Shown here: piece by piece, positions 1 through 21,743 of the stretch
Layout of the letters: each line of letters starts with the position of its first letter
Position numbering within the stretch: position 1 is the stretch's first letter
NCBI GenBank assembly: GCA_030530875.1
Contig: JAUMUD010000015.1
Span: forward strand, 1-48,848
Reading direction: 5' to 3'
DNA length: 48,848 nucleotides
From: Corynebacterium sp.
GTDB lineage: Bacteria > Actinomycetota > Actinomycetes > Mycobacteriales > Mycobacteriaceae
The notes under the pieces: model-generated
Told to the model about the DNA's origin: nothing
Database searches by the model: none
Seen by the model: only the letters and a program-made list of their open reading frames with translations
Position numbers and translations under genes: made by a program

Positions 1-3000
1 TTCGCTTTGTGCAGTGTTCTTGCGTGCGTTGCCGTTTTGCACTTCACGCAGCTCAATCTCAATCGGGGCTATGAGGGGGTCTTGGTGCTGCTGGTCGAGC
101 AGCATGCGCAGGGTGGCGAATGGGGTGGTGAGGGTACGAGTGAGCGCTGGTGGGTTTTGCACGAGGCGGCGGCGGTAGCCGAGGGGGAGAAACTTGGCGG
201 CAGTCGTCCATGGGCGCAGGGACTTCTCATAGAGGTCCTCAGAGCCGAGGCTGGTCATAATCTTGATTAGCAGGCTCATCGGGTTGCTCAGGAGACGCTC
301 AATATGAGGCTCAGTGGTGTGCGTATCTCGAGCGTAGTTGCGCACATCCATGACGTCCTTCACATTCATGGTGCGGTGAGGATCATTGCGGAACCAGGTG
401 CTGCGATCGCCATGACGCTCATAATCGGCCAACATATCGCTGGTAATAGCCCAAATCATGCCATACTCATCAGGCTGATTATCAATATGCGCACGCAGAT
501 TACGGCGGCGGCTCACATCATCATTAATGCGCCAGGAATCCATCGGATTATCCTTGGTTCCACGAAGAGCATGCCAGACCTTCGAATCGCAATAAATATA
601 GAAGGCCACAGACTTGCCATTGGCATCAGTTTCACTGCGCAGCACAAAATCAGGCTGGGTGAAATCACCCACGCGGACCTCACGTTCAAGGGTCCAGGTG
701 CGCTTACGGCCCTTCAAGCGAATAGCCCACTTGCTGGTCCGAGCATTCTCATATTCATCCACACGGGCACCCTGATTAGCCATCGCCTTAAAGAACTGCT
801 CAGCAAAACGCTCCTCAAGCTTGGAAATAGCATGGTCACGGCTAAAGTCCGGACGATAATCCGCAATATCCTCAGCATCAAGCTCAGCATAGGTATTTGC
901 AATATCAGCCTGTGCCTCGACCAGATCCTGATAGGTCGCCTGACGGGCATTAAGGCGAGCAATCTGCTCCGGGGTATAGAGCAGTTCCTCAATAATCTTC
1001 AAAGCCACAGCCCGGCGGGTATAGCGCAGATCCCTGCTGGTAGTAAAAGGCTGCAGGCAATTCACACAGCAGGACTGATCAGCGGTCTGAGGCGTGGTAC
1101 CACACTCACAGGTGGAGAGAATATCACGGGCACTAATAAGAATATTCTTCAGCGAATTCGCATCCACCAGACTTTCCAAGAACCCCGTGCCACCACGAAC
1201 AGTGTCATAAAGCAACAGAGCCTTTTCCGTCTTATTATCCTGCGAGAGCTCCTCCTCAGCAGAGAACTTAATCTTCGCACGGGAACGAATAGGAATTTCC
1301 ATAATATCGGTATGCTCAAGAGCACCACCGATCACCTTCGAAAAACCAAGACGCAAAGCAGCAATCAAAGAAGGAATGGCATACTTCGAAGAAATACGGC
1401 GCACACGCGGAGGCAAATAGAACAAAATACCCTGCGTATCATAATCGCGAGACAAAGCCAGACGCACATTATGCTTCTGATCATGAGAATAGCGGTGCTT
1501 ACAATACGCACGGTGATCGCTAGGCATATTAGCCCCGGCAGCCACATCCTCCTTACCGCAATAAGAACACAGCGTAAAGAGAGAAGGCTGACGCAGCTGA
1601 CCATTATAAGAAACCTCCTTGGCCCCACTATTCGGGTGCCCAAGGTTCAAATGCCTCACAGTCAACTTCGGCACAAACTGCACCTCAAAGCCGGTGGCAG
1701 TCTCAAGGGGAGCCTGCATCTCATTCACCGGCGGCAGCGCACAACTCGTATGAATGGTGTAATAGGATTCGCGCCGGGCATCCTCAGAGGAATCAATGAG
1801 GTCACGCTCATAGCGCACCACACTAGAGACCGTGCGCAGGTCAATAAAGTCCAGCTCACGTTCACGGGCATTAAAGGCAATGGCACCACAGGATGGGCAC
1901 TGCTCCGGGCTATTTTCGGTGCGAATTTCCGAATAGGAGCAATTGGAGCACAGAAGCAGGGTCTGAATTGGATTATTCTTATCCCGCAAATCCACAGCAT
2001 CAATATTCAGGCGCAGTGACCTGGCATAATAATGGGAACCAGGGGCAAGCTCACTCAGCACCCGGTCATTATTCACCTTCACTGGCTCCAGCTTCACTGG
2101 CATAAATCCAGAATTATCCTCCGTGCGGCGGAAGCCCGAGGACTCCACCGTCACCGAATGGTCATGCAGGCTGTAATTTGGCAGCAGCCCCAGGTCACTA
2201 AAGACAATGGCCCAATATTTCTGACCCGAGGATCGCGCAATTTGTGCAGCCTTGACCAGGGACACAGCCTCAATATAGGCCTCCTCAGCCCAGACCTGCT
2301 GCTCCTCATGATTCTGCTGCAGCTTCACCGTGCGCGCAGCATCCGAGGCCTCATGCTCCATATTCTTCAGGTCGATTTGCTTATTCTTCCAGGCCAGGGT
2401 AGCCGCGCGCAGCACAGACATATAGTCCCAGGACAGGACCTTCTCTGCCACATTTTGCTTAACTTCCAGGCCCAGGCTATCAATAAACTCGGTGAAAATC
2501 CGCTTCATCACACCTGGATTCTGCAGCTCATAGGCACGCAGGCAATCATGCAGGCCCCTGTGGCCCGCAAAAAAGTCATTGGCAGAAACACCCAGCGGTC
2601 GCTCATCCATCAGTGGCATGACATGGTCCAGTACCGCAGCAAAGGCTTGGCGACGAATAAGATTAGGCGCATTCAAATAGATGGTCGGTGGCTGAATGGC
2701 GCCAGCAATAGTATCAAGCGGATTTTCCAGGGCCTGCAGGTTCTGCGCGGAACCACGCAGAACTGCCACCACAAGGCTATTGCCGGTAATACGCCCGGCA
2801 CGACCAGCACGCTGAATATAGGAGGCCGTCGTGCGTGGTAGGGAGGAAAGCATGACCATGGAGAGATCACCAATATCAATACCCATTTCCAAGGTTGGGG
2901 TAGCTACCAGCACATTAGGTGCGCATGGGTACTTATCCTTGGCGCTATGTGTGGCCCCACGGAAGCTATTTTCCATCTGATGGCGGGTAGTCGTATCCAC

Positions 3001-6000
3001 CACGGAGCTATGTTCACGGGCAATAATGCGCGTGCGGCGGCTGGTCTCATAGAAATTGGAGTAGAAATTATTCTCCACAGGATGGACTTCCAGGTGGCCT
3101 TCGCAGGTGCGGTTAAAGCATGGAGCACCCTCCATTTCGCGCGCAGCCCTACCCGTAATTGGCAGAGTCTGCTTACACAGGCCACAGCTCAAAATGCCAC
3201 AGTTATCCAGCTCCGCAGCAGGATACACACCCAGACGATCCAACGGAATGGAGAAGGTACGAAGAGCATTCTCATTTGGCTCCTCCTTTGGCTTCTTCTT
3301 GCCATTCTTATCCTTGTCCTTCTTCGTCAGGTCGCGGATAATTGGCACAGAATCCACAAGCCCTCGGGATTCCAGGGCCTTAAAGAAGCTCAAAATCACA
3401 TCCCCGGCATTCTCCCTGGCAATACCAATGGCCCTATTGGTCCAATGGGCATACCAGCCTTCCTTAGCAGTGAGGCTATCCAGGTAATAGCGGGTGCGGG
3501 CACTATTTGGCTTGGCCGGCCCAGAAACAGGGTAGCTAGGCGCACGACCGCGACCAAACATGCGCATCTTAATATCATTGCGGTATGCGGTGCGGTTCAG
3601 GCGCCAGTCACTACAGGATTCCTGACGGTACTGATTCAACCATGGGTGGCTAATACCACCGCGAATACGCACACGCTCAAGCAAACCACGAGCCCAGAGC
3701 AAATAATCGCGATCAGTGAGATTTTTAATTTCTTTAAGCGGAATTATTCCATCGGCCGTGTCGACGGCCTCTTTAGCAGTCTGGATCAATAGATCCGTCT
3801 CATATTTGAGGCGCAGGTCGGCCACGCCAGTAAGCATGAGGGTACGGCCAATACCGGAACGGCGGCTAAATTCCAGCATTACATCAAATTCGAGGCGGTC
3901 ACGCAGCAGCTTTTCCACATGCGACTTCTGTTCCGCATTGAAGATATAAGGAATAATACCATCGGCCCCAGGGCTTGGGCAGTCCTGATAGAGCGGCTCC
4001 AGTTCCGTATCCATCATCAAATCTGGTGGCAGCAGGGCAAAGCGCTCCTGCTTGGTATTAGCCGCCTTGATAATATCATCGGCAATATCCTTGCAGGTGG
4101 TCTTGCCATTATGCAGCGCATTGGTAATAGCGGTTCGGAATCCAAAGTTATAGCTTCGATCTTCCACATAGCCCGCACGGTGGGCCGCATCCTGAATGGA
4201 GTCGGCAAAAATGAGGGTTTTCTTTTCATTCCCGCCCACATTGCCCATACCAAAGAGCGTGGTTACAGCAACAGAAAGCAGGGTAGTAACAGCCGAGCCC
4301 ATGGCGCGGATAGTGTCCTCACTACCGCAGGATGGGCAGTAATTATTCCAGGCCCGCTTCTTTTCCCAATCGGAGGTGGCCGTGCGGTCAATGAGATTAA
4401 CGGCCTTGACCCCAATCCAGGAACCAGCTGTTGCCGGGTCCTCCTCCAGCACGCGCTTATATTCCCCGGCAGAGTAGATTTTTTGCTGGGAAGGGTCCAG
4501 CCAATAAAACTGGGTGGCCTCACCGGAGCGGTCACGGGCAGTGTTAGTCTCGTACTGGCTTTCCTCACCCGGATAAGCGCTAATTACAGGCAGTACTGCC
4601 ACGGCTTCCTCGCGCACGGAAGCACGGCGCAGAATCTGAGGGTCGGCAATATAGGTGCGCTCATCACTATCACCCTTGCCGATATACCAGCCGCTCCTAC
4701 CGCAGTGGCGACAATAAATAGCGGGCAGCCAGGAGGTACTCTCAGCAAAAGCAGTATCGGTGCCCAGATTCCAGCGGAATTTCGCACTATGGCTAAGCTT
4801 ACGGTCCACGCGGTTAAGCTCACGCACCCACAGGTGAATATTGACATCCGGAATACGGGTGGTTGGGTGGAATTCCTCACCGGCACGCAGATTCTGCTTC
4901 TTTTTCTTGTCATTATTCGCAATGCGTGCACGCAAGGAAGAAGCCCAGGCAAGCAGGTATTCCATGAACTTAGTGGCCACGGAGCTCTCAAGGCCCTGGC
5001 CCACATAGGTGGTGGTGAGTTCAGCAAAATCCACAAATTTATCTGCCAGGGCATAAAGGCGACAGAGCCACGGATTTTCACGCACAGACTGGGCGATATG
5101 CTCATCATCCACGCGCGCAAAACCGCAGTGCTCAGACATTACCTCATGGAGGCGCTCATCAAAATCCACCCCATTCATATCCTCATCGGCAAGGTCCTGA
5201 ACCACGCTAGAAACCACTTCCACAAAGCTCTTGCCATTGGTCTTCCAGGAGCCAAGCACCTCTTGGGTAGCAAAATTCTGCATGCCTAGAACTCGGTTCC
5301 AGTCACGCAGGTTCTCACGGGTCTCACCCACAATATCGGACTCGGAGAATTTCACCCCAAAAAGGGTAGAGAGGTATTTGACCAGCTCTTCGCTATTATC
5401 CTCACCCATGGTTGCGGAGGTAGCCACCGGAACCACACCGCAGAGCGCGTCATTGCGGCGCTCAAGATTCCACCCCTGCTGCTCACGGATATGGCGGATT
5501 CGCATACCAAGGCGGCGAAGCAACATGGTCACATCAGTACCCTGCGCGCCATCATAAGTATGCGCCTCATCAAGCACCAAGTACGCAAGATTCTTGGCAA
5601 TGCTCTCCCAGAGGGAAAGCTCCCCATTGGCAGTCACCGCATCAGCATGGCGGTGGAGCATAATATCGAGCATCTTGTAGTTGGTGAGGATAATATCCGG
5701 CTTGTATTTACGGATATCCTCACGCTTACGGATCACCACTGGGCCAGGAATGGAACCCAGGTCCTCACTATCCTCATCCTCAATATTGAAGGGATTATCG
5801 CCGATATAGAGACCAACGCGCAGGTCTTTGAGCTCCTCATTGTCCCGAATCAAAGATTCGAGACGCTTGGTTTGGTCATTGGCCAAGGCATTCATTGGAT
5901 ACAAAATAATGGCCTTGGGGCCAAGCTTATTCTTTGCGCGCTCACGCACACAGTGATCCAAAATTGGGTAGAGATAGGCCTCGGTCTTACCAGAACCGGT

Positions 6001-6348
6001 ACCAGTCACAATTGCCGTTGGGCTAGGCTGTTGGGTACGACCACGACGGTCCGCGGTACGAAGCCTACGGAAAGCCTCATCCTGGTGGACATATGGTACA
6101 AAGCCTGATGGTAGCCACTGAAGCACATGCGCATCTTCCTCATCGACCTTTTTAAAAGGCATGGCAGTGCGCACAAAGGGCCCACGGAAGAGACTGTGCT
6201 GGGCGCCAGTCTCATGATCGAGGGTCTGCAGGAAGCGCTTAAATTCCTGCTTTGCATCATTATCTTCCAACCCCATGGTGGTCGTGAGATATTCAGCAAT
6301 ACCCTCGTTTACAGAAAAACTACCATTAATCGGCAATAGTGAGCTCAT
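1..6348 (-). CDS. Giant DEAD/DEAH-box helicase with DUF1998 domain, DruE-like or fused DrmA-DrmB-like (partial; C-terminus off the left edge)
   Basis: The reading frame is open for 2116 codons from an ATG at 6348 to base 1, with no stop. Near the N-terminus it has Walker A TGTGSGKT (residues 115-122), DEAH (260-263) and SAT (311-313). Helicase motif VI, QRAGRAGR, follows at about 1176-1185, preceded by ATPTLEMGIDIG. Paired cysteines (CRHC, CPSC, CGLC, CSNC, CSYC) suggest several zinc sites. At about 1709 YDTVRGGTGF followed by CECG and CCVNC is the hallmark of DUF1998/MZB. Further on, PDFVL followed about 20 residues later by YCDSKVWH resembles a PD-(D/E)xK-like nuclease core; that is inference. 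Size and layout fit Druantia DruE, or DISARM DrmA and DrmB in one chain. The SNF2 helicase gene lies 92 bases upstream on the same strand, so both probably share a transcript. The likely role is DNA translocation in anti-phage defence. Confidence 0.85.
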   Translation of the reverse strand, partial: MSSLLPINGSFSVNEGIAEYLTTTMGLEDNDAKQEFKRFLQTLDHETGAQHSLFRGPFVRTAMPFKKVDEEDAHVLQWLPSGFVPYVHQDEAFRRLRTADRRGRTQQPSPTAIVTGTGSGKTEAYLYPILDHCVRERAKNKLGPKAIILYPMNALANDQTKRLESLIRDNEELKDLRVGLYIGDNPFNIEDEDSEDLGSIPGPVVIRKREDIRKYKPDIILTNYKMLDIMLHRHADAVTANGELSLWESIAKNLAYLVLDEAHTYDGAQGTDVTMLLRRLGMRIRHIREQQGWNLERRNDALCGVVPVATSATMGEDNSEELVKYLSTLFGVKFSESDIVGETRENLRDWNRVLGMQNFATQEVLGSWKTNGKSFVEVVSSVVQDLADEDMNGVDFDERLHEVMSEHCGFARVDDEHIAQSVRENPWLCRLYALADKFVDFAELTTTYVGQGLESSVATKFMEYLLAWASSLRARIANNDKKKKQNLRAGEEFHPTTRIPDVNIHLWVRELNRVDRKLSHSAKFRWNLGTDTAFAESTSWLPAIYCRHCGRSGWYIGKGDSDERTYIADPQILRRASVREEAVAVLPVISAYPGEESQYETNTARDRSGEATQFYWLDPSQQKIYSAGEYKRVLEEDPATAGSWIGVKAVNLIDRTATSDWEKKRAWNNYCPSCGSEDTIRAMGSAVTTLLSVAVTTLFGMGNVGGNEKKTLIFADSIQDAAHRAGYVEDRSYNFGFRTAITNALHNGKTTCKDIADDIIKAANTKQERFALLPPDLMMDTELEPLYQDCPSPGADGIIPYIFNAEQKSHVEKLLRDRLEFDVMLEFSRRSGIGRTLMLTGVADLRLKYETDLLIQTAKEAVDTADGIIPLKEIKNLTDRDYLLWARGLLERVRIRGGISHPWLNQYRQESCSDWRLNRTAYRNDIKMRMFGRGRAPSYPVSGPAKPNSARTRYYLDSLTAKEGWYAHWTNRAIGIARENAGDVILSFFKALESRGLVDSVPIIRDLTKKDKDKNGKKKPKEEPNENALRTFSIPLDRLGVYPAAELDNCGILSCGLCKQTLPITGRAAREMEGAPCFNRTCEGHLEVHPVENNFYSNFYETSRRTRIIAREHSSVVDTTTRHQMENSFRGATHSAKDKYPCAPNVLVATPTLEMGIDIGDLSMVMLSSLPRTTASYIQRAGRAGRITGNSLVVAVLRGSAQNLQALENPLDTIAGAIQPPTIYLNAPNLIRRQAFAAVLDHVMPLMDERPLGVSANDFFAGHRGLHDCLRAYELQNPGVMKRIFTEFIDSLGLEVKQNVAEKVLSWDYMSVLRAATLAWKNKQIDLKNMEHEASDAARTVKLQQNHEEQQVWAEEAYIEAVSLVKAAQIARSSGQKYWAIVFSDLGLLPNYSLHDHSVTVESSGFRRTEDNSGFMPVKLEPVKVNNDRVLSELAPGSHYYARSLRLNIDAVDLRDKNNPIQTLLLCSNCSYSEIRTENSPEQCPSCGAIAFNARERELDFIDLRTVSSVVRYERDLIDSSEDARRESYYTIHTSCALPPVNEMQAPLETATGFEVQFVPKLTVRHLNLGHPNSGAKEVSYNGQLRQPSLFTLCSYCGKEDVAAGANMPSDHRAYCKHRYSHDQKHNVRLALSRDYDTQGILFYLPPRVRRISSKYAIPSLIAALRLGFSKVIGGALEHTDIMEIPIRSRAKIKFSAEEELSQDNKTEKALLLYDTVRGGTGFLESLVDANSLKNILISARDILSTCECGTTPQTADQSCCVNCLQPFTTSRDLRYTRRAVALKIIEELLYTPEQIARLNARQATYQDLVEAQADIANTYAELDAEDIADYRPDFSRDHAISKLEERFAEQFFKAMANQGARVDEYENARTSKWAIRLKGRKRTWTLEREVRVGDFTQPDFVLRSETDANGKSVAFYIYCDSKVWHALRGTKDNPMDSWRINDDVSRRRNLRAHIDNQPDEYGMIWAITSDMLADYERHGDRSTWFRNDPHRTMNVKDVMDVRNYARDTHTTEPHIERLLSNPMSLLIKIMTSLGSEDLYEKSLRPWTTAAKFLPLGYRRRLVQNPPALTRTLTTPFATLRMLLDQQHQDPLIAPIEIELREVQNGNARKNTAQSE

Positions 6349-6440
6349 GTGCTATATCCTACCAGGCGATAGGGACAGAAACAGGGCTCATTATTGCCGG
6401 TAAAACGCTAAGCGAAACTTGGGTAGATTAGCGCTGCTTT

Positions 6441-9386
6441 TCAGTTCTTAGGAACAACCATGAGAATTGGGCGCTCATACTTATTCTTCGGATCGAACTT
6501 CGTGGTCATGCGCTCCTCATACTTCTTGCGCTCGGTCGCATCCTTCACGCGCTCGCGGCGGTGAGACTGGTTGAAGCGCTGAATAGCGGCAGTTTGCACA
6601 TCGGTGAACTTATTCTTGATCATCTGCATAATGTCATTCATCTGCTCCACAGCAGGGCGGATGAGTGACTGCAGTTCCTTAATGTCCTCATCGCTGAATT
6701 CGCGCAGGTTATTAGCTGCACGGGTGTCGCAAAGATCAGTATGATCGCGCAGCCAACGCGTGATATCAGACTCCGGAAGGTAGGAGAAGAAGAGCTGACC
6801 ATCAGCGGTTTTGCCCTCATACTTGGCGGTATAAATGGCGCGCGTAATGGTCTGGCCATAAGGGTTAGAGAGCGTAGCCAGCAGAATGATGGTTGGGCTT
6901 TCCACATCACCATGGATAATTGGAATTTCCTTGCCACCCATGGTGGTAAGAGCACGGTCCGCAGCCCAGGCAGTCACCGGGTGCAAAGGGCCAAGATAGT
7001 GGATGCGTGGCCAGTTAGCCTTGACCTCACTATCCAGGGCACTCTGAATGGATTCATTGCCGGTTTCACGGTTATCAGTGAGCCTGATTTCATCAAGAAT
7101 ATGCAGGTCCTTGACATAGTCCTTTGGCAACACACGGAAGCGCTGCTGCAGGTCAGGGGAAGGGTTGAGACGAACCACATGCTCAGCGGCATTCTGAGCC
7201 CAGCCCACACCATCATTATCCAGTGGCTTTTCTGGGTGATCCTGGAAGGCCTCCAAAAGTGCATCCTGTAGATACTCCACCTCAGTGGCATAAATGGAGC
7301 TAAAGGCATCCTCTTCGCTATTTGCGGACTCGCTCGCAGCCTGCGTATCTGGGGCATCGAAGTTTAGCAGGTCAAGGGTATTGAGCGCCGCCATGCTGCT
7401 ATCCTCACTGTCCTCAGGAGCATTGCTATTTTCAATGATCTGGCGGAATGGGGCAGCAGTGCGTGCAAGGGCTTCTTCCACCTCAGGCACGACCTCTTCG
7501 AAGGTCTTTTGGCCGCTAAGGGCATCACGGATCGAGGCTTCCTCAGCCTTGACATCGTACTTGCCCATGAGCACAGCAACATCGCCACCGAGTTGCTCGC
7601 GCACCGTATACTCGCGCTCCATGAGCTTTTCGAAAATATGCAGATCACCTGGGCTATCGGCCGCATTGGTATCGAGAAGCAGGGTAGCGATAACTGGACT
7701 ATGGTGCTGACCATAGCGGTCAATACGGCCATTACGCTGCTGGATACGAATCAGGGACCATGGAATATCCCAGTGAATCAGGTGGTGGCACTGCTGGTGG
7801 AGGTTCACACCCTCACTGGCCACATCGCCAGTGACCAGCACACGTAGGTCATCTTCCTTGCGCTTAAAGGACTCAATGATAGCCATCTGGGTGGCATCAT
7901 CATCCTTACCATTCATGGTGGTGATCTGTGAGGCCTTGAGCTTCAAAGTCTTGGCAATATTCTCCTTGAGCCAGCTAAGGGTATCTACACGCTCAGAGAA
8001 AATCACCACGCGCTCATCGCTCTTTGGCCCAATGCCAATTTCTTTGAGATAGGAAATGAGCTTTTGGAACTTAGCAGAATTTGAGGTGTTGACCTTGGAA
8101 TTTAGCTCCTCAAGGCGCAGGAGAGCCACAATTTCCGGATCAGTTTCCGGCAGGTGCTTTTCTTTGCGCAGCAGGTTCAGACGGTTATTAATGGTCACAT
8201 CCAAAGCTGCAGGTGAGGAGAGGAAAGCCTTGAGCAGCACCCATGGGAAGAGATGATTATGGCCACGGGCCTCATTCTTCGCTGATGGTGGCATAACATC
8301 TTTGCCGGTCCAGGTATTGCGCAGCTCACGAGCCACCGCGGCCTCCTCCGCGCTCGGTTCAACCAGCATATTGACTGGTTCAGCGCGCTCAGCCCACTGG
8401 TCAGCCACATGGTCGCGCACCTCAGGGGAATAGCGGTGACGGCGAATAACGAGCTTTTTGACAAATTCCTTAATTGGAATGCCGTGTTCATCCACAGCTG
8501 CAGGGTCCAACAAACGCAGCATCTCACCAAAGGCCTTCTGGTTGCCATTATGAGGCGTAGCAGAGGCAAAAATCAGTGCATCGGTGCGGGTGGAGAGCAT
8601 GCGCACAAGCTGGTTGTTCTGGGTTTCGCGGTTCACCACATTATGGGCCTCATCCACAACCACAGCATCCCAGTTCACCTTCTCCAGGTAGGTGCGGTAC
8701 TTAGGCTGCTTCAGGGTATCCAAGGACACAATGGCGCGATTGTAATAAGTGAAGGGATTACGGGTAGCCGGAAGTTCCTGACGGATGCGCTGGATAGCAA
8801 TGGAATCAAGACGGACAAAAGGAATAGCGAAGCGGTTCCACATTTCCTTCTGCATCTGCTCAAGGACGCTTGGTGGGGTGACAATCAAAATACGGTCACC
8901 GCGACCACGCTTAATCAGCTCAGCAAGAATCAGACCAATCTCAATGGTCTTACCCAGACCCACAGCATCAGCAATGAGCAGACGAGGCTGGTAGTTATCG
9001 GCAGAGAGAATCTGGCTTACAGCCTTGCGCTGGTAATCGAGGGGATCCACAAGCATGCTATTGGCCACGACAAGCTCATGGGACTCCAAAGGTACTGGAG
9101 TCTGGCGCAGAGTGGTTTCCATCCACAGGCGGGACTTGCGGAAATTTGGGGAGGTATCGGGGCTGAGAGTGACATTCTTCGGATCAATAATCTTGATTTT
9201 GTCGAAGCAGTCGAAGAAGATAGCTTCCTCATCACGCACATATTCGCTGATACCACGGACATGGATGCGCTGGGAGCCAGCAGCCACACTGGCATCTGTT
9301 ACCAGCCAGTGCTCATCGCGCACCTCAACAATCATGCCAGGGGAGTATGTGGTCTCTACCTTGGCTTCTTCCTTGGTCTCTGCCAT
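6441..9386 (-). CDS. SNF2/RapA-like helicase, DISARM DrmD-like
   Basis: This 981-residue protein is an SF2 helicase of the SNF2/RapA type. Walker A lies in ADAVGLGKT (residues 139-147), DEAH at 245-248, an ASATPHNG motif III follows, and motif VI is RIQQRNGRIDRYGQ near residue 595. The N-terminal 100 residues form a small beta-rich region (GMIVEVRDEHWLV), as in RapA-like proteins. Length and layout agree with the DrmD helicase of class 1 DISARM. The start ATG at 9386 has an AGGG ribosome site about 6 bases upstream. The gene is the first of a two-gene minus-strand block, followed by the giant helicase after 92 bases in which I see no terminator. The assignment to DrmD rather than another SNF2 defence helicase is inferred from family resemblance and from the methylase at 17.1 kb. 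Confidence 0.85.
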   Translation of the reverse strand: MAETKEEAKVETTYSPGMIVEVRDEHWLVTDASVAAGSQRIHVRGISEYVRDEEAIFFDCFDKIKIIDPKNVTLSPDTSPNFRKSRLWMETTLRQTPVPLESHELVVANSMLVDPLDYQRKAVSQILSADNYQPRLLIADAVGLGKTIEIGLILAELIKRGRGDRILIVTPPSVLEQMQKEMWNRFAIPFVRLDSIAIQRIRQELPATRNPFTYYNRAIVSLDTLKQPKYRTYLEKVNWDAVVVDEAHNVVNRETQNNQLVRMLSTRTDALIFASATPHNGNQKAFGEMLRLLDPAAVDEHGIPIKEFVKKLVIRRHRYSPEVRDHVADQWAERAEPVNMLVEPSAEEAAVARELRNTWTGKDVMPPSAKNEARGHNHLFPWVLLKAFLSSPAALDVTINNRLNLLRKEKHLPETDPEIVALLRLEELNSKVNTSNSAKFQKLISYLKEIGIGPKSDERVVIFSERVDTLSWLKENIAKTLKLKASQITTMNGKDDDATQMAIIESFKRKEDDLRVLVTGDVASEGVNLHQQCHHLIHWDIPWSLIRIQQRNGRIDRYGQHHSPVIATLLLDTNAADSPGDLHIFEKLMEREYTVREQLGGDVAVLMGKYDVKAEEASIRDALSGQKTFEEVVPEVEEALARTAAPFRQIIENSNAPEDSEDSSMAALNTLDLLNFDAPDTQAASESANSEEDAFSSIYATEVEYLQDALLEAFQDHPEKPLDNDGVGWAQNAAEHVVRLNPSPDLQQRFRVLPKDYVKDLHILDEIRLTDNRETGNESIQSALDSEVKANWPRIHYLGPLHPVTAWAADRALTTMGGKEIPIIHGDVESPTIILLATLSNPYGQTITRAIYTAKYEGKTADGQLFFSYLPESDITRWLRDHTDLCDTRAANNLREFSDEDIKELQSLIRPAVEQMNDIMQMIKNKFTDVQTAAIQRFNQSHRRERVKDATERKKYEERMTTKFDPKNKYERPILMVVPKN

Positions 9387-9948: not shown

Positions 9949-10154
9949 GGAGGGCTCCTCCGGAAGTAGTGGAATAATAACGCCCTTAGCTTAACCAGGG
10001 TTTGTCGCACACGTCAATGGAAAAATTAGGGAAGCTTGATGAAAAATACAGAATTTATCGCCATTGGAACTGGGAATCTGCGCTGACTTGCAAAAATAGC
10101 AGCTGTGCTAATTTGGTCACACTCGGATGCCAGTGTAGGCCACGTGAGGCTGAC

Positions 10155-10420
10155 AAAAAACGCTAGCCACAGTGTGAAATACCGTGGCTAGCGTCCCTAG
10201 GTATCTGATATCCGCCGTGGGATACCCAGATGCCCCAACAAAGAAAGGATAGCAACTATGCCTAATACATCCCGCCCGCATCAGTATATTCAGCGGGATT
10301 TAAATCATAGTGCTGGGATGACGGGGCAGTATGTACTGTTATCCGCCAGGTCGCTTTCACCCGTGCGACCTTGATTAGAAGAGTAGCAAGCGGTCCGGAC
10401 ATTAATTCTTTTTTTGGGGC
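10155..10420 (-). ncRNA. Candidate small RNA, copy A, ending in a minus-strand terminator
   Basis: On the minus strand the unit contains a 7-bp stem AGGTCGC/GCGACCT with loop ACGGGTGAAA (10348-10371), then a GGTATC/GATACC pair. It ends in a strong terminator: GCTAGCCAC pairs with GTGGCTAGC (10162-10192), followed by six T (10155-10160). A short minus-strand frame of 46 codons exists here but is not conserved in copy B. The 5' end is uncertain because I could not place a convincing promoter. It may instead be the 3' part of a longer transcript. Confidence 0.45.
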
Positions 10421-10527
10421 TATTAGTGCAGGTAGCAAGGTGTATTGGGTGTTAACTATGTTGCGGGGCTAGTGGTGTGTGTGGCTTGGGTGGTAGAGAT
10501 TGTTAGCTAGCCACTTGGGTCTGACAT

Positions 10528-10790
10528 AAAAAATGCTAGCCACAGCGTTAAGTGCTGTGGCTAGCGTCCATTGGTATCTGAAATCCGCCGGGGGATACCC
10601 AGATGCCCTAACATAGAAAAGTAGGTGCCAAATGTCCTATCCATCACGTCCGCATCTGTATGCTCAGCGGGATTGAACTTGTAGCTCCGGGATGACGGGG
10701 CAGTATGTACTACTATCCGCCAGGTCGCTTTCACCCGTGCGACCTTGATTAGAAGAGTAGCAAGCGGTCCGGACATTAATTCTTTATGAG
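10528..10790 (-). ncRNA. Candidate small RNA, copy B, ending in a minus-strand terminator
   Basis: This is the second unit. The hairpin AGGTCGC/GCGACCT lies at 10722-10745 with the same ten-base loop as copy A. The terminator stem is a perfect 12-bp GCTAGCCACAGC/GCTGTGGCTAGC (10535-10565) followed by six T on the minus strand (10528-10533). The middle bases of the terminator differ from copy A. The stem is improved rather than broken, as expected if the structure is under selection. A 71-codon minus-strand frame covers the unit, but its last half has no counterpart in copy A. Confidence 0.45.
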
Positions 10791-11150
10791 GCTATTGCTG
10801 CAGGTAGCCAAGGGTATTGGGTGTTAACTATGTTATGGGGCTAGTGGGGCGTTTAGCGCGTGGTGGGGTGATTGAAAAGTGTGATGCGGTTTTGTTGGCT
10901 GTGATAGTGTGTCGCGCATTTGGGTGGGGTATGGTGCAATGCGCCAGTTTTCTGTTATTTTATGCGAGAGTATGAATCCCTAGTTTTGTAGGCGAAAGAT
11001 CTCTAGGGTAAAACCACATATACCCATCTAAGTGATTTTCAGGAAAATTTTTATGTTCTGACCAGGTGCAACAGATAAAGCCTATTTGCAAAGTGGGATT
11101 CTTTAGTATTCATTATCGAATTATAAAATACAGAATTCGACCCGTGCGCA

Positions 11151-11257: not shown

Positions 11258-11380
11258 CAAATATAAAGGGCCAACCCCTAAGGGCTGGCCCGACAAGAAA
11301 GGAGTCCTATCACGAACACAGAACTCATGGGATGGCTTGTTGGGGCGCCAGGTTGCTTTCACCCGTGCAACCTTAAGGAC
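11258..11380 (-). ncRNA. Candidate RNA element, diverged third copy of the hairpin-terminator unit
   Basis: The stem-loop AGGTTGC/GCAACCT at 11350-11373 has the same ten-base loop as copies A and B. Both arms changed together (C to T on one side, G to A on the other), so pairing is kept. A different but equally placed terminator follows: GGGCCAGCCC with GGGTTGGCCC (11268-11291), then a T-rich run on the minus strand. This unit sits directly downstream of the HtaA-like gene (stop at 11443) and could also serve as the structured 3' end of that mRNA. Confidence 0.45.
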
Positions 11381-13814: not shown

Positions 13815-13844
13815 GGCGCCGTTTTCTGTAACGGCGCCTTTTTG
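13815..13844 (+). terminator. Rho-independent terminator after the YkvI-like gene
   Basis: GGCGCCGTT and AACGGCGCC form a perfect 9-bp stem around a six-base loop, followed by five T. Because it is nearly symmetric it may also stop lysE transcription coming from the other side. Confidence 0.85.
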
Positions 13845-13901
13845 TGCAAGGAGGCTTGTGGTTTTGCTTGAAGTGTGGCTGCTGAATGTTGCCTGGTGAC
13901 T

Positions 13902-14609: not shown

Positions 14610-14666
14610 GCCTTCAGTTTCGCCTACATTCCGATTAAAGTAAAATAAAGAAATCTTGATTTGCGT

Positions 14667-14679
14667 TAGAATAGCTTCA
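14667..14679 (+). promoter_or_regulatory. lysG -10 box, probably leaderless transcript
   Basis: TAGAAT at 14667-14672 is followed by six bases and the lysG ATG at 14679, so transcription would begin at or next to the start codon. No ribosome site precedes the ATG. The 69-base divergent region also has to hold the LysG operator for lysE. Confidence 0.5.
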
Positions 14680-15596
14680 TGAATCCTATTCACCTGCAGA
14701 CACTATTAGCCGTATTCGATGAAGGTACCTTTGAAGGGGCCGCTGACCACCTAGGAATTACCCCATCAGCGGTAAGCCAAAGAATTAAAGCCCTAGAGCA
14801 AAAAGCTGGCCGAGTATTAGTCCGAAGGGGAGTGCCAGCCATCCCCACCGAAGCCGGTGAAGTATTAGCCCAATCCGCACGCCGCATGGCACTTTTGCAG
14901 GCAGAGACAGAGCAACAGCTCTCAAGCCACTTAGCCTCAATCCCACTGAGTATCGCGGTCAACGCCGACTCCCTTGCCACCTGGTTCCCAGAGGTAATGA
15001 CAAAAGTCGCCAACCATGATGGCCTTACACTTCGCATGCGCATTGAAGATGAGTCCCAAACCCTCCATCTGCTACGAAGCGGTGACGTACTCGGGGCTAT
15101 TACCCGTGACTCAACCCCAGTAACAGGCTGCATCGTGGAAAGCCTCGGCACCATGGACTATTACCCCTGCATCGCGCCGGGCTTGCTCGCACGCTATACC
15201 CTCGAGGATTTAACCCCACAGCAGAAGAAGCAGATGACTGTTGTCGAGCGCATTGACTGGTCACAAATTCCAGGTCTTCGCTTTGGTCGTAATGATGCCA
15301 TCCAAGGCCGTGCCCTCGACCGCTACTGCCCAAAGTCTAAAGGCTTTGCGGCGCCAGTCAATGAGATTCCATCCTCCCAGGCCTTCCTTGATGCTGTGCG
15401 TGTTGGTCTTGGTTGGGGCATGCTTCCGGAGCAGCAAGCGGCCCCATTGTTGAAGGCTGGCACAGTGGTGCTCATTGATGATTATGTGGACAAGGTGGAG
15501 CTCTACTGGCAGCGCTGGCGTCTGGAGTCTCGTATCCTCGAGCAGCTCTCCGCCATTGTCATTGAAGCCGCCCATGCTGCGCTCACAACTGAATAA
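14679..15596 (+). CDS. lysG: LysG, LysR-type activator of lysE
   Basis: The 305-residue LysR-type regulator begins MNPIHLQTLLAVFDEGTFEG and has a winged helix-turn-helix at residues 5-65, with recognition helix ITPSAVSQRIKALEQ. The effector domain shows blocks shared with C. glutamicum LysG, such as NADSLATWFP, RRGVPAIPTEAG and a C-terminal YWQRWRLESR. The family member senses lysine, arginine, histidine or citrulline and switches on lysE. Its divergent position next to lysE supports the same job here. The gene seems to be translated from a leaderless message. Confidence 0.93.
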   Translation: MNPIHLQTLLAVFDEGTFEGAADHLGITPSAVSQRIKALEQKAGRVLVRRGVPAIPTEAGEVLAQSARRMALLQAETEQQLSSHLASIPLSIAVNADSLATWFPEVMTKVANHDGLTLRMRIEDESQTLHLLRSGDVLGAITRDSTPVTGCIVESLGTMDYYPCIAPGLLARYTLEDLTPQQKKQMTVVERIDWSQIPGLRFGRNDAIQGRALDRYCPKSKGFAAPVNEIPSSQAFLDAVRVGLGWGMLPEQQAAPLLKAGTVVLIDDYVDKVELYWQRWRLESRILEQLSAIVIEAAHAALTTE

Positions 15597-15688
15597 TTCG
15601 TGAATAATTGGTGTGTAGTCGGGGCTAATTAGGCCCCCTACCGGCGCGCCAATCCCAAGTAAGCGCACTACATTCTAATCTTTTAAGC

Positions 15689-16998
15689 ATGAATGACAAC
15701 TCTTCACGCCCAGTAGACGATCTCGATGACGTTGATGTCCCAACCTATGGTGGGGATCCCAACCCAACGCAGCGTGCCTATGAGCGGGCGGGTCGCGTTG
15801 CGCCAACCGTAATTACTCCGGGTGGTTCAAGAAGCCAGCTGAGCCTGCTAAGGAAGCAGATGAGCCAAAGGCTGCTGCTCCAGAGCAGAAGCCAGTGGAG
15901 TCTGATGTCAAGGTAGCTCCTGCAGCATCCGAGGCTCCAGAAGCTACCGAGCCAGCAGCTGATGCTGCGCCAGCACCAAAGGTAGAAACCGCTGAGCCAA
16001 AGCTCGCCGATGAAGCCTTCGAGCTCGTTGATGCTCCAACTACTCAGTTTGGTGTGCCAGCTTCCACTCCTGGCCCAACCCCATCTGCCAAGGAAGAAGC
16101 ACCTGAGGCTAAGGCTCCAGAGGTTTCCGCTTCTGATGATGCCATTCTGGATACTCCAATGATTCCTGACGATGATGCAGCAACCACGGTTATCCCAACC
16201 GTCTCTGGTGATGCACCTACCACCATCTTCCAGGACCCAATGCCACCAGTGGAGCACCCAACTGCACAGATTCCTGTAGTTCCAAATAATCCAGCTCCAG
16301 CACCTAACCCACAGGCTTATGGTGACTTTGCGCAGGGTTCCGTTCTTCCAGGTGCGCAGCCAGTGCAGCCAGAACAGCCACAGGGTCTGAGCTTTGAAAC
16401 TCCACAGGAAGTTCCACCAGCACCAACCAATGTGACTCTGCCAGGTTCCGTTCCACAGCAGGTTGCCCCACCGGCCCCAACTATCGTTGAGGAACGCCGT
16501 GGCACCATGGACTTCGGTATCTTCCTGCTGCGCCTGATTGTGGGTGCACTCTTTACCGTTCACTCCCTGGCAGTGTTCTTCCACTTCGGTGGTTCCACCG
16601 GCATCAACGGTCTGCAGCAGCAGTTCGAGTTTGCTCACACCACCTTCATGCCAATGGTGCTTCCTTGCCTTGAGCTCATCGCTGGTGTCTTCCTCATCCT
16701 CGGTCTTGCAAGCCCAGTGGCCAGTGCCCTTGGTATTGTTGCTGCCGCAACGACCACCACGGTGGATTACATCAATCATGATTGGTCTTCCAATGAGGTG
16801 ATTTTCTCCGCACTGTTGCTCGGCCTGGTTGTAGCCCTGCACTTCACCGGCCCAGGTCGCTGGAGCTTCGACTTCTCCCGTTCCTGGTCCAAGCGCCCAC
16901 TGGCCAGTGTGTGGATTTTCTTCGTGATTGGCGTTATCGCCGCAGTTGCCCTCTGGGTAGCTCTCGTGGGTGTTAACCCACTGGCAGTCACTACCTAG
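15689..16998 (+). CDS. DoxX family membrane protein with an apparent one-base frameshift
   Basis: A start at 15689 (TAATCT -10 box seven bases upstream, leaderless pattern) gives an N-terminus with DDVDVPTYGGDPNPTQRAYERAGR. This frame is lost soon after VITPGG near 15833. The next frame over continues as GWFKKPAEPAKEADEPK without any start codon of its own that has a ribosome site. One missing base around 15828-15834 would join them as PGWFKKPA. The downstream frame holds a long Ala/Pro/Glu-rich linker and then a DoxX domain with four membrane segments, starting at about 16507 (DFGIFLLRLIVGALF) and ending VWIFFVIGVIAAVALWVAL. DoxX proteins are membrane proteins linked to redox stress in mycobacteria. 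The break may be a real mutation or a sequencing error. The membrane domain itself is intact. A GTG at 15895 is a weak alternative start. Confidence 0.75.
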
Positions 16999-17018
16999 CA
17001 TTTAATATTCACACTCAA

Positions 17019-17055
17019 GCCCTGATTCGGTTCATTCTCCGAGTCAGGGCTTTTC
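17019..17055 (+). terminator. Rho-independent terminator after the DoxX gene
   Basis: GCCCTGATTCGG pairs with CCGAGTCAGGGC (one mismatch) around a short loop, followed by TTTTC. It separates the DoxX gene from the methylase gene. Confidence 0.75.
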
Positions 17056-17123
17056 TTTCGCGTTCTGTCATTATAATGACAGGAGTATTTCCCTTTTGCA
17101 CTCTAGGAGCGAGGTCCGACCCC

Positions 17124-20100
17124 ATGGCCATTTATGATTCGATTATCAATAATGACAACTTCGTGTCGGATTATTTCATGACTTCGGAGGACTCGAAGGG
17201 CACCTTCTACGGTGAGACCAAGAAGCGTATTGCGTACTGGAAGAAGGAACCAGGCGCTGAAATTCATAAGCGCTTGGCTAGTATGGTGACGCCATTCCTT
17301 ACGGAATTTGCTCAATTCAATGACGAGGGGCATGACCAGAGTATCCTCTACACCCTGCTCCACAACTTCATGGGCTTCCCGGAGGATCGCGTTATTCAGC
17401 ACGATCTTGCGACTGATGGTGATGCCTGCAAGGAATTCCTGCTCAAGGGCTATCTCGCTTCTGGCAACCACACTCTTTACCTCGATGCTACGGCAGTTGA
17501 TGCCTATGAGGACATTGTTAATGCGAAGCCGTTGACTCCAGTTGTGGTTGATGGCAAGCCGCAGGAGTGGAATATTTCAAAGACTTTGAGTCAGGTGTTC
17601 GCTCTGGATACCCCACCTGAATATGCGGTGGTTATTGCCGGTCAGTGGCTGTTGTTTACATCTCGTGAGGCATGGCCTTATGGCCGCTACCTTGCTGTCA
17701 ATATTCGCTGGGTGTGCGAGCAGAATGAAACCAAGACCGGCGGTCTTAATGACCTTGCAACCTGTATTTTTGTGATTGAGAATACGAGTAAGCACCTGGA
17801 TGGTTCGTGCTGGTGGGATAGTGTTCTGGAAGCCGCTAAGGAACACACCGCCAAGGTGTCAGGTTCTCTTCGCCATGCAGTACGCGACTGCGTTCAGATT
17901 CTCGGCAATGACGTGCTCCAGCGCAGGACTGCTCAAGGCCTCGAGAATACAGACGAGATCGCCGAAGAGCTTACCCGCGAAGCACTTCGCTACATGTACC
18001 GCATCCTCTTCATCCTCTTCGCCGAAGCATCCCCTGAACTCGGCGTTCTACCAGTGGGCACGGATGAGTACGACATGGGATACGGCCTTACCCGTCTCAC
18101 TAACCAGGTTCTTGAACGCCCGAATAACTACGCCGCTAACAACGGCACCTACCTCTACCAGTCCCTCGAAGTTCTCTTCGAGAATGTCAATGGTGGCTCG
18201 GATGTGTCCACCGAATTCGCCGAATACTATATGAGTTTTGCTGGTGTGGAAGCCGACATCTTCCTTCCGGAGAATACGAAGTATATTTCCGAGGTTGGAC
18301 TCTCTAACTCAGCGCTGCAGAAGATTCTCAACAAGCTGCTGCTTACGCCTAAGCCTGGTGATAAATCAGCTCGTGGTAAGAAGTCTGGGCGAGGTACTGG
18401 TCGCACCTCCAAGTCGACTGAACGTGGCTTTATTTCGTATGCCTCACTCGGCGTTACCGAGCTTGGTCAAGTTTACGAGGGCTTGATGTCCTATAAGGGC
18501 TTTATCGCCGAAGAGTCGCTGTACGAAGTGGCTCCGGGTGGTGATAATTCGCAGGGCTCGTGGATGATTCCGTGCCGTATTGCTGATGCGGATGAGAAGC
18601 GCTACCCAAAGACTGACATTGTCGGCTCCATTGATCCAGAAACTGGCGAATTCATGCCAGTATATTACCCGCAGGGTAGTTTTGTTTATCGCCAGTCTTC
18701 GTATGATCGTGAGCGTTCGGCCTCTTTCTATACACCTGAGGTTCTCACGAGTTTTGTGGTTGACCAGGCCCTTGAAGTGCTCGAAGAACAAGGTGCCATC
18801 AGCAAGGCTGAAGACTATCTGCATCTGAGTGTTTGTGAGCCTGCTATGGGTTCCGGTGCCTTCGCGGTCCAGGCTGTTCGCAAGCTTGCCGACCGCTATC
18901 TCACTATGCGTGAAGAAGAGCTTCGTAAAGAACTGGGAAGCAAATACGAAGCACTCGATCCGGAAGACCGACCCGAGGAACTTCAGAAGGTCAAAGCCTA
19001 TATTGCCCTGCGTAACGTCTACGGTGTGGACCTCAATAACACTGCTGTAGAGCTTGGTCAGATCGCTCTGTGGTTGGACGCGATGGTGAAGGGTCTTCGT
19101 GCCCCGTGGTTCGGACTTCACCTTCGTGCTGGCAACAGCCTGATTGGTGCCAGTCGAACTACCTTCAACGCCAAAGACCTTGCTAAAGACGCATCTAAAA
19201 AGAAGCCAGATTTCCGTTGGCTCGATACCCCAGCGGACAAATACGCTGCTAATGAAGATTTTGCAGGTAAGGTCTATAGCTTCCTGCTTCCTTCACCCAC
19301 ATGGGGCGCTGCAACTTCTAAGGTTGAGACTCATGTGAAGAAGCGATTTGGCGATGAAATTAAGAACCTCAATGCGTGGTCTAAATCTATCTCGAAGCCA
19401 GACTTACTCGCAGCCACTCCATTCGAAGTGAACCGCCAGTTCACAGTGAAGACTGCTACCGACTCCTCTAAGCACGTAGCCAGTGGCATTACGCGACTTG
19501 AATTCCTCGAGCAGCTTTCACTGCGCATTAACCAGTTGTGGGAGTTCGCTACCGTTCGTCTTCAGCTTGCAGAGAAGCAGATTGAGCGAGATTTCAACAT
19601 CCGTGGTTATAAGCCTGATACTGTTGACCGTCAGGCCAATCGCCAAATGATCGAAGCCTCATTGGATGATGCTAACAGTGCGCTTCAGCGCTTGAAGCTT
19701 GTGATGGATGCCTGGTGTGCTCTGAAATTCTGGTCGATCATCACCCCACACGACAATAACGGCAACAAGATCGTCCCGCCCTCTTATGATGAATGGCTCC
19801 AAACCATTGACCTCATTGTGGGTGAGTATGTCCCCGAGACCCAGGGCAAGAATGGGCAAATCTCCTTCGGTACCATCACCACCTGGAATACTCTTGAAGA
19901 AGCCGAACGCGATAATGCAGCTTTCGCATTCGCTGGACGCGGACAGGATGTTGAGAAGATTGTTGCTGATACTCCGTGGCTTCAGGTTGTACGGAAGCTT
20001 GCTTCGGAGCAGAATTTCTTCCACTGGGAGCTCATGTTCGCCCAAGTCTTCGCTAATGGCGGCTTCGACCTCGTCATCGGAAATCCTCCTTGGGTACGCC

Positions 20101-21743
20101 CACAGACAGATGAGCAAGCAGCTCTGGCGGAGTTCGATCCATGGTGGGTCATTGCAAAGAAGAGCACACAAGCCGAACAGAATTCTGCCCGTGAAGAGGC
20201 ACTAGCAAATCAAGACTTCCTACCTAGTTACGTTAACGCCTTGACAATCCCTGTCGTAACGTCAAAGATTCTCAATGATCCAACACTTTACCCAGAATTA
20301 CTTGGTCAGAAGGCCGACCTTTATCGCGCATTTATGGTGCGTAGTTGGGATATAGTCAATTCTGCTACTGGTACTGCTGGTTTGATTCATCCTGAATCTC
20401 ACTTCACTGAAGAAAAGGCCGCGCCCCTCCGCAAAGAGGCATACCACCGTCTACAGCGACATTTTCAGTTCATTAATGAGCTAAAGCTGTTTGATGTCCA
20501 CAATCTTGTCACCTACGGCTGTCATATCTATTCAAGCTACGATATCGAGCCTAGATTCATCAACATGGTGTCACTGTACCATCCACTCACAGCAGTGGAG
20601 TCACTTCGAATTAAGACCTTCGATGGCAGCGTAGAGCTCCCAGGCACTAAGACATCCGATGGTAACTGGGATCTACGTCCTCACCCTGAGCGTAAGCAAT
20701 TGGTGGGCGATGAAACACTCGCGCTTTGGTGTCGTGCTGTGGAGACCGAGGGCACTCCCATCGACGAAGCCCGCATGGTCTACGCCATCAACATCACCGC
20801 CACTAATATTCTTGCTAAACTCGCGGTTCAGCCAAAAATCAAGGAGCTAGGACTCCTGTATCACACAGGATGGAACGAAACTACAGATCGTAAAAAGGGC
20901 TATTTTGAGCACGGATATAACACGCCAATAACTTGGGATGAAGTCATTCTGCAAGGACCCCATATTGGTGTCGCAACCCCATGCATCAAGCAGCCTAACC
21001 CTACTCTCAAGAGCAACAAAGACTGGAGCGAGACAAACTTCCTGAATGTCACTAGCGATTTCGTGCCGGCTTGCGCTTATATACCGTCTCTTGAGTCCGG
21101 ATATGAGGAATCATACAGGCACATCAAACTAGATAATGGCGACACCGTAAGCCACAAGGATTTTTATCGCATCGGTTGGCGAGAAATGGCTGCAAACACG
21201 GGCTTCCGTACGCTTTATCCAGCAATTTTGCCGCCGAGGGCAGCGCATGGGTTTACAATCATGTCTGCATTTCCACGTAGTCTCAGTTTGGCTGTGCTGC
21301 TCACGGCTGCAGGTTCAATGAGCTCGATTATCACAGACTATTACTTGAGATCTCTTGGTGGTGGACACCTACAAGGCGGGGTAGTCGACTCTTTGCCGCT
21401 AGCGTCTAATCAAAGTCTCGTGGTCTTGGCAGCTAAGCTCAACTGCATCACCGCGGTCTATGCTGACCTATATAAAGAAGCCAGTGGCGAGGAATGGACC
21501 TGGGATAGTCCGCTGCGCCATGAGCTTGATCGTCAAAAGGCTCTGGCTGAGATTGACGTGATTGTTGCTAAGGACTTTGGCTTGACTCTGGATGAGTTGA
21601 TTTATCTTTACACCAAGCAGTTCCCGATCATGGCACGTTATGACAATGAGTGGATGTATGACGCCAATGGCGACCGCACTGAGGAAGATGGTGAGGTCTT
21701 TGACCGCGTCGCTTACTACAAGGAACTGTGGGCGACGAGGTAG
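17124..21743 (+). CDS. Large class I N6-adenine DNA methylase, Eco57I/DrmMI-like
   Basis: The protein has 1539 residues from the ATG at 17124, chosen because AGGAGCGAGG lies about 9 bases upstream; an ATG at 17076 has no ribosome site. Methylase motif I is CEPAMGSGAF (571-580), the S-adenosylmethionine site, and motif IV is NPPW (987-990), the catalytic motif of N6-adenine enzymes. Between them lie about 400 residues, as in large Eco57I-type and BREX/DISARM methylases. The N-terminal 500 residues are of unclear fold; the region after NPPW should hold target recognition. No nuclease motif was seen, so it probably marks host DNA for a system whose helicases lie at 1-9.4 kb on the other strand. 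Codon use changes after about 20210, with TTA, ATA, AGA and AGG codons that are rare in the first two thirds. It could also be a stand-alone type IIG-like enzyme. Confidence 0.88.
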   Translation: MAIYDSIINNDNFVSDYFMTSEDSKGTFYGETKKRIAYWKKEPGAEIHKRLASMVTPFLTEFAQFNDEGHDQSILYTLLHNFMGFPEDRVIQHDLATDGDACKEFLLKGYLASGNHTLYLDATAVDAYEDIVNAKPLTPVVVDGKPQEWNISKTLSQVFALDTPPEYAVVIAGQWLLFTSREAWPYGRYLAVNIRWVCEQNETKTGGLNDLATCIFVIENTSKHLDGSCWWDSVLEAAKEHTAKVSGSLRHAVRDCVQILGNDVLQRRTAQGLENTDEIAEELTREALRYMYRILFILFAEASPELGVLPVGTDEYDMGYGLTRLTNQVLERPNNYAANNGTYLYQSLEVLFENVNGGSDVSTEFAEYYMSFAGVEADIFLPENTKYISEVGLSNSALQKILNKLLLTPKPGDKSARGKKSGRGTGRTSKSTERGFISYASLGVTELGQVYEGLMSYKGFIAEESLYEVAPGGDNSQGSWMIPCRIADADEKRYPKTDIVGSIDPETGEFMPVYYPQGSFVYRQSSYDRERSASFYTPEVLTSFVVDQALEVLEEQGAISKAEDYLHLSVCEPAMGSGAFAVQAVRKLADRYLTMREEELRKELGSKYEALDPEDRPEELQKVKAYIALRNVYGVDLNNTAVELGQIALWLDAMVKGLRAPWFGLHLRAGNSLIGASRTTFNAKDLAKDASKKKPDFRWLDTPADKYAANEDFAGKVYSFLLPSPTWGAATSKVETHVKKRFGDEIKNLNAWSKSISKPDLLAATPFEVNRQFTVKTATDSSKHVASGITRLEFLEQLSLRINQLWEFATVRLQLAEKQIERDFNIRGYKPDTVDRQANRQMIEASLDDANSALQRLKLVMDAWCALKFWSIITPHDNNGNKIVPPSYDEWLQTIDLIVGEYVPETQGKNGQISFGTITTWNTLEEAERDNAAFAFAGRGQDVEKIVADTPWLQVVRKLASEQNFFHWELMFAQVFANGGFDLVIGNPPWVRPQTDEQAALAEFDPWWVIAKKSTQAEQNSAREEALANQDFLPSYVNALTIPVVTSKILNDPTLYPELLGQKADLYRAFMVRSWDIVNSATGTAGLIHPESHFTEEKAAPLRKEAYHRLQRHFQFINELKLFDVHNLVTYGCHIYSSYDIEPRFINMVSLYHPLTAVESLRIKTFDGSVELPGTKTSDGNWDLRPHPERKQLVGDETLALWCRAVETEGTPIDEARMVYAINITATNILAKLAVQPKIKELGLLYHTGWNETTDRKKGYFEHGYNTPITWDEVILQGPHIGVATPCIKQPNPTLKSNKDWSETNFLNVTSDFVPACAYIPSLESGYEESYRHIKLDNGDTVSHKDFYRIGWREMAANTGFRTLYPAILPPRAAHGFTIMSAFPRSLSLAVLLTAAGSMSSIITDYYLRSLGGGHLQGGVVDSLPLASNQSLVVLAAKLNCITAVYADLYKEASGEEWTWDSPLRHELDRQKALAEIDVIVAKDFGLTLDELIYLYTKQFPIMARYDNEWMYDANGDRTEEDGEVFDRVAYYKELWATR

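Follow-up and report, generated by a model that had tools for sequence, protein, structure and literature searches.

The locus analysed here raises the question of whether three large genes, two of them adjacent on one strand and the third on the opposite strand 7.7 kb away, form one defence system, and which system that is. The window, meaning the whole stretch of DNA under study, is the entire contig C47 (48,848 bases) of a draft Corynebacterium genome (G000; 2.19 Mb, 67 contigs). It encodes a helicase–DUF1998 protein (1..6348, minus strand), an SNF2 helicase (6441..9386, minus strand) and a methylase (17124..21743, plus strand), all located as in the preliminary description. Judged by sequence kinship, the three genes are ARMADA Type II, a known phage-defence system, and not a new hybrid. 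The system is already known; its arrangement in the window is new.

Kinship with ARMADA Type II

ARMADA Type II was published by Bell et al. 2025, whose main text (PMC12458937) presents it as a missing link joining DISARM to Druantia and reports that it protects E. coli. Its parts are given there as a BrxHII/RapA-like SNF2 helicase (ArmA), a PglX-like methylase (ArmB) and a YprA-like helicase (ArmC), in the order ArmA-ArmB-ArmC, followed by ArmD, a GajB-like UvrD helicase. Further features described are a RelE-like N-terminal domain on ArmD, a C-terminal Vsr-type nuclease on ArmC and a BrxA-like insertion after RecA1 of ArmC. A 2026 review (PMC12904381) lists ARMADA as restricting by mechanisms not yet known. 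By kinship with these parts, the SNF2 helicase is ArmA, the methylase is ArmB and the helicase–DUF1998 protein is ArmC.

We compared the window proteins with those of an E. coli plasmid that carries a STY4851/ECs_5259-family gene, DruE, ArmA, ArmB, ArmC and ArmD in a row (gene names assigned in this analysis; DruE confirmed by PADLOC at 2180 bits). The window ArmA, ArmB and ArmC, together with the ArmD found on contig C44, match E. coli ArmA to ArmD at 409, 574, 439 and 230 bits. The ArmC match extends over 1882 aa, and E. coli DruE is matched by the window ArmC in two short stretches only (115 bits over 313 aa, and 65 bits). The PADLOC DruE3 model scores the window ArmC at 256, E. coli ArmC at 347 and E. 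coli DruE at 2180, and in a tree rooted on E. coli DruE the E. coli ArmC forms a group with one cyanobacterial ArmC, beside 28 actinobacterial ArmCs. The DrmD-, DrmMI- and DruE-like profile matches anticipated in the preliminary description were indeed obtained, but they do not single out a hybrid, as PADLOC gives the E. coli ARMADA proteins labels of the same kinds (DrmD, REase_MTase_IIG, DruE3 at low score and GajB/UvrD). The 2023 PADLOC models give ARMADA proteins the labels DrmD, DruE, type IIG and GajB.

ArmC is a YprA-family helicase fused to DUF1998/MZB (Pfam DEAD, Helicase_C and MZB/DUF1998), with 2116 codons up to the contig end, where its ORF remains open; it is incomplete because the window is the whole of contig C47. 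Its C-terminal 313 codons were found at the right end of contig C44 (L117:12830-13771, minus strand), which also carries ArmD. An exact copy of the first 12 bases of the window stands 3 bases short of the C44 end, so the two contigs are probably neighbours; this join and the C34–C33 join described below are inferred from a draft assembly. Over the two contigs ArmC has about 2430 codons, compared with about 2100–2300 in most relatives and 2113 in E. coli. Its DEAD/DEAH helicase domain (5404..6015, minus strand; aa 112–315) contains Walker A Lys121 and Walker B Asp260, and its MZB/DUF1998 zinc-binding domain (1054..1251, minus strand; aa 1700–1765, by Pfam) recurs in all 30 ArmC rows scanned, the window and 29 relatives. 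A putative C-terminal nuclease-like region (379..711, minus strand) shows a D...D...H pattern at aa 1900, 1921 and 1926; these columns are invariant in the 30 rows, and the Pfam nuclease match in 1 of 30 is weak sequence evidence. We take the pattern to resemble the Vsr motif.

ArmA, a SNF2/RapA (BrxHII-like) helicase of 981 aa whose best PADLOC model is DrmD, is separated from ArmC by 92 nt with no ArmB between them. The order ArmA-ArmC-ArmD is kept across C47 and C44, given the probable join, with the ArmB position vacant. ArmD (L117:10400-12775) has a Pfam UvrD match, and PADLOC returns a NERD+UvrD model at 108 bits, then GajB at 78 bits. At its N-terminus, in an alignment of 12 sequences, it is 16% identical to E. 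coli ArmD and lacks the common RVRTGRV-like stretch; no Pfam toxin match occurs in this ArmD or in those of three relatives. The proposed RelE-like toxin part may be degenerate in the window genome.

The catalytic residues named in the E. coli mutants are kept: K146 and D245 in ArmA, K121 and D260 in ArmC, K310 and D533 in ArmD, and the NPPW and glycine motifs in both ArmB copies of the genome. Mutation of these residues abolished or weakened defence in E. coli, and abolished it for the counterparts of ArmC Lys121 and Asp260 (main text, PMC12458937). Our check used E. coli proteins from a strain other than the one tested there, and the residue numbers land on the expected motifs.

The likeness to ARMADA Type II comprises the four protein kinds, the A-C-D order and the conserved catalytic residues. 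The window differs in that ArmB lies outside the operon, on the opposite strand, and exists in two copies with unlike C-terminal blocks, in its longer ArmC and in the diverged look of the ArmD RelE-like part. Class 1 DISARM shares relatives of DrmD and DrmMI, but it has separate DrmA and DrmB where the window has helicase and MZB/DUF1998 in one ORF of the ArmC/DruE kind. Past the window ArmC lie ArmD, an SRAP gene and gatB rather than a DrmC-like PLD gene; such a gene had been thought possible left of base 1, and the search there turned up ArmD instead. The SRAP gene and gatB, which follow ArmD on C44, yielded no PLD gene and no PADLOC match. The likeness to Druantia III (DruE, DruH) lies in the best PADLOC match of the window ArmC, which is to DruE models; there is no full-length match to E. 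coli DruE, the DruE3 score is low, and the neighbours are ArmA and ArmD.

We searched 201 genomes of the genus at E 1e-30, scoring the best two to four candidates per genome, so that absences and copy numbers are not exhaustive. Matches came from 49 genomes for the helicase–DUF1998 protein, 44 for the SNF2 helicase and 40 for the methylase; 7 of the 49, with ArmC matches limited to a short N-terminal helicase stretch, were left out before co-occurrence was counted, and the ArmA counts take in two fragments (G005, G168). ArmA, ArmB and ArmC occur together in 39 of 201 genomes, far beyond chance (Fisher p 7e-37 to 7e-35 for the three pairs). This count, the PADLOC matches and the shared operon bear out the earlier proposal that the DrmD-like, DrmMI-like and DruE-like families are parts of one system. 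The exceptions are ArmA and ArmC without ArmB in G058, ArmB alone in G082, ArmC alone in G060 and G159 (a fragment in G159), and ArmA alone in G005, G131, G168 and G169, in part fragments or contig ends. Among 44 ArmB loci of the genus, 31 have ArmA to ArmD on one piece, usually in the order SNF2 helicase, methylase, helicase–DUF1998, UvrD helicase; 6, including the window, have ArmA, ArmB and ArmC; 2 have ArmA and ArmB at contig ends; and 5 have ArmB alone.

Two ArmB genes outside the operon

ArmB1 is a PglX-like N6-adenine methylase of 1539 aa, or 1555 aa from an earlier ATG at 17076, with its NPPW and EPAMGSGAF motifs intact. It lies on a 5.3-kb insertion (16989..22273) in place of which the sister genome G058 has 96 bp and no ArmB. 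Between 6.8 and 30.8 kb of the window G058 is otherwise collinear with it, and the methylase does stand within a core gene order, having entered this segment separately from the helicase genes, as had been supposed. Upstream of ArmB1 there is a perfect 16-bp palindrome, TGTCATTATAATGACA (17066..17081), preceded by a terminator-like hairpin (17017–17052), a region that could possibly provide ArmB1 with its own control. The insertion also contains a 111-aa ORF (21928..22263, plus strand) that is hydrophobic by eye and has no Pfam or PADLOC match; 3 of the remaining 200 genomes contain weak relatives. A promoter-like site precedes the ORF (21789–21818), of a kind no commoner than chance. In the 530 bp 3′ of ArmB1, blastx against the ArmB ORFs of the fetched regions returned no remnant of a recognition block (best E 0.63).

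A second intact ArmB, ArmB2, lies at the end of contig C34, after a NUDIX gene and a gene of 310 aa. The equivalent place in G058 has the NUDIX gene, a single relative of the 310-aa gene (38% over 268 aa), then a leuD-like gene, and no ArmB. In the window genome, contig C33 carries the leuD-like gene, with two further relatives of the 310-aa gene ahead of it, and the final 47 bases of C34 have a 94% match on C33. We infer that C34 and C33 are neighbours, and that the NUDIX–leuD interval would hold several 310-aa-type genes and ArmB2 in the window genome compared with one such gene and no ArmB in G058. The tandem relatives of the 310-aa gene adjoin ArmB2 and leuD (L274:3-1779, L095:6291-7223).

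ArmB1 and ArmB2 are 93% identical over residues 167–1110 and 87% in the tail, and diverge in two C-terminal blocks. Counted from 17076, variable block 1 of ArmB1 (20424..20693, plus strand; aa 1117–1206) is 56% identical to ArmB2, and variable block 2 (21084..21413, plus strand; aa 1337–1446) is 38% identical; a short stretch, 761–800, also diverges (57%). The first 1100 residues give a dN/dS of 0.05 at a dS of about 1, which indicates long-standing selection on both copies; a recent duplication, which we considered, is ruled out by this dS. In residues 801–1100 dS falls to 0.34, which suggests local exchange. A mobile element common to both copies was likewise rejected: they share no flanks, their DNA homology is confined to the ORF, and the 111-aa ORF of the insertion is without a Pfam match. 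In the ArmB tree, both copies fall in a clade with the ArmBs of G183, G041 and G082 (support 1.0), whose inner order is weakly supported (0.333), and in the ArmA and ArmC trees, the latter by FastTree, G183 and G041 are near kin of the window genome, after G058. Searching PDB sequences with the ArmB profile returned no match.

Variable blocks and inverted cassettes in relatives

The same pattern of divergence recurs among relatives. Six plasmid ArmBs (five from E. coli and one from Klebsiella, drawn from 51 matching plasmid records) have mean identities of 0.99–1.00 to residue 720 and 0.90–0.97 to residue 1080, which drop to 0.58–0.69 and 0.37–0.56 in the regions corresponding to the two blocks. 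Many close Corynebacterium pairs behave alike, as in G102/G099 (core 0.95, second block 0.38, tail 1.0); second-block divergence is weaker in other pairs (0.69 in the G195 orphan pair, 0.77 in G074/G191), and the first block is often conserved between Corynebacterium pairs, e.g. 0.91 in G191/G186. PglX is the specificity factor of BREX, and phase variation is common in pglX, according to the account in PMC11341690. By this analogy, a role in target recognition would be the natural reading of the two C-terminal blocks, and that the two ArmBs of the window genome differ mostly there points the same way.

Among the 44 genus loci, five (G044, G183, G171, G145 and G170) have a C-terminal piece of ArmB beside the gene, facing the other way. 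These loci hold six inverted cassettes (two in G171), all stop-free. The cassettes begin at one of two places: in G044, G171 and G170 at position 246–249 of the cassette model, near ArmB residue 1337, the point at which ArmB1 and ArmB2 part too, and in G183 and G145 at model position 1, near residue 1091. Exact inverted repeats shared by gene and cassette reach 52 nt in G044, 278 nt in G183, 50 nt in G145, 17 nt in G170, and 38 and 13 nt for the first and second cassettes of G171; they sit mostly in arms that are 73–89% alike. A recent inversion is likely only for G183, with its 278 exact bases. With a model built from Corynebacterium sequences, cassettes were found, among 80 loci kept from 165 relatives, in the records of G171 and G183 only, and in none of those from another genus.

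These arrangements suggest cassette exchange by inversion, so that a population could switch its ARMADA specificity where exact repeats are present, as in phase-variable restriction systems. The likeness to the phase-variable PglX of BREX lies in a PglX-like methylase as specificity factor (PMC11341690, as above); the systems differ in their effector genes, in the ArmB cassettes, which are inverted copies next to an ARMADA operon, and in the two full ArmB copies of the window genome. The main text of the ARMADA paper (PMC12458937) mentions neither inversion nor phase variation, and a title-and-abstract search of incomplete coverage turned up no paper describing it for ARMADA.

In G183 the cassette has a tyrosine recombinase gene next to it. 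Among the fetched regions, an ORF matching two reference recombinases lies between ArmA and ArmC in G058 and G183 only, and the kinship of these two recombinases is moderately supported (0.895); the window genome has two marginal recombinase matches (E 4e-4 and 9e-4). We rejected the idea that such a recombinase belongs to the system in general: homologs occur in 89 of 201 genomes, so the ArmA–ArmC recombinase is perhaps an ordinary integrase.

A probable specificity subunit acting in trans and the rival explanations

We consider it probable that the window genome encodes an anti-phage system of ARMADA Type II with a specificity subunit that acts in trans. The ArmB methylase would read a short DNA site and mark the host DNA and, like the PglX of BREX, would guide ArmA, ArmC and ArmD to unmarked phage DNA. 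There, ArmA would serve as an SNF2 translocase, ArmC as a helicase with a C-terminal nuclease-like region, and ArmD as a UvrD-type helicase. In the window genome armA, armC and armD stay together and armB has left the operon, and two armB genes with near-equal cores and different presumed recognition blocks occupy two core-genome sites. Two armBs with different blocks would allow one effector set to police two motifs, provided that both ArmBs methylate DNA at different motifs and assemble with the same effectors. More tentatively, and with somewhat less confidence than we would need to favour it outright, we propose an ARMADA with an exchangeable specificity subunit: a movable ArmB, able to quit the operon and work in trans, whose blocks are swapped by inverting silent cassettes, the window strain having one ArmA-ArmC-ArmD set and two ArmBs of different specificity.

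The main rival, which we regard as unlikely, is that the ARMADA is being dismantled: armB would have been lost from the operon, and both ArmBs would be solitary methylases (self-marking or anti-restriction) that no longer serve ArmA, ArmC and ArmD. G058 has ArmA, ArmC and ArmD where the window genome has them, with a tyrosine recombinase gene occupying the position of ArmB, and no ArmB was detected in this genome, which is 91% complete, at E 0.001; the helicase set therefore persists without a detectable ArmB. Conversely, two ArmBs were found in G082 (a MAG with 5% contamination) and neither ArmA nor ArmC was matched there at 1e-30, so an unlinked ArmB need not serve ARMADA. Between the window genome and G058, ArmA, ArmC and ArmD also evolve fast, with pN/pS of 0.43–0.62 compared with 0.10–0.21 for three core genes, at synonymous sites near saturation. 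However, their ORFs remain open over 958, 2038 and 780 compared codons at pS 0.63–0.66, and the tested catalytic residues are retained, which speaks against this reading.

Less probable still is that the methylases are stand-alone type IIG restriction–modification enzymes that merely lie near a helicase pair, an outcome that the preliminary description had named as one that would count against it. The top PADLOC model of ArmB1 is REase_MTase_IIG (1335 bits), and the gene, which is unlinked, perhaps has a control region to itself. But the identical label falls on ArmB within the E. coli ArmA-ArmB-ArmC-ArmD operon, and ArmB is near ArmA and/or ArmC in 75 of the 80 relatives kept; the remaining five comprise two G082 MAG pieces, a 3-kb contig and two loci from C. 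otitidis.

It is very improbable that ArmB1 was misplaced by chimeric joining, even in a draft of 67 contigs in which a contig end breaks ArmC: G058 is collinear on both sides of a clean insertion, the ArmB1 ORF is intact, and the flanks of ArmB2 differ from those of ArmB1. The weakest explanation, a new hybrid of class 1 DISARM and Druantia in which a DruE-like protein replaces DrmA plus DrmB, drew on the DrmD-, DrmMI- and DruE-like profile matches of the three proteins and can practically be set aside, as the same gene set, together with ArmD, has been published as ARMADA (main text, PMC12458937) and the E. coli ARMADA proteins match the same kinds of profile.

Several minor observations concern the surroundings of ArmB. 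C. otitidis G195 has at least three ArmB genes (L109/L201, L110 and L226) away from its own ARMADA locus (L107), where additional genes separate ArmA from a split ArmB; L226 was found only in the wider search of relatives, not in the genus search. Extra genes are also frequent in the ArmB–ArmC stretch (L123, L126, L133, L125, L111, L144 and L105), which reaches about 15 kb in G038, and include same-direction ArmB-tail fragments in G038 and G049; the stretch 3′ of ArmB looks like an insertion hot spot. Between ArmA and ArmB, G145 carries an RloB-like gene and an AAA ATPase gene (L100:14887-16824). Directly upstream of the ARMADA operon on a Tsukamurella plasmid lie a helicase gene and a separate DUF1998 gene (L263:1-2392), DISARM-like by annotation.

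The window also contains, at 10155–10874 and 11346–11374, a non-coding repeat with two tandem copies of about 350 nt, 77–88% alike over three matched segments. Among the 201 genomes the repeat was found in this one only, and Rfam gave no family at its cut-off for the region, with one match far below it. The first part of the repeat (10150–10275) forms strong predicted hairpins (z −5.9), and the second (10275–10410) shows no such folding (z −0.6). A third, short copy of one of the repeat hairpins carries compensating changes on both sides.
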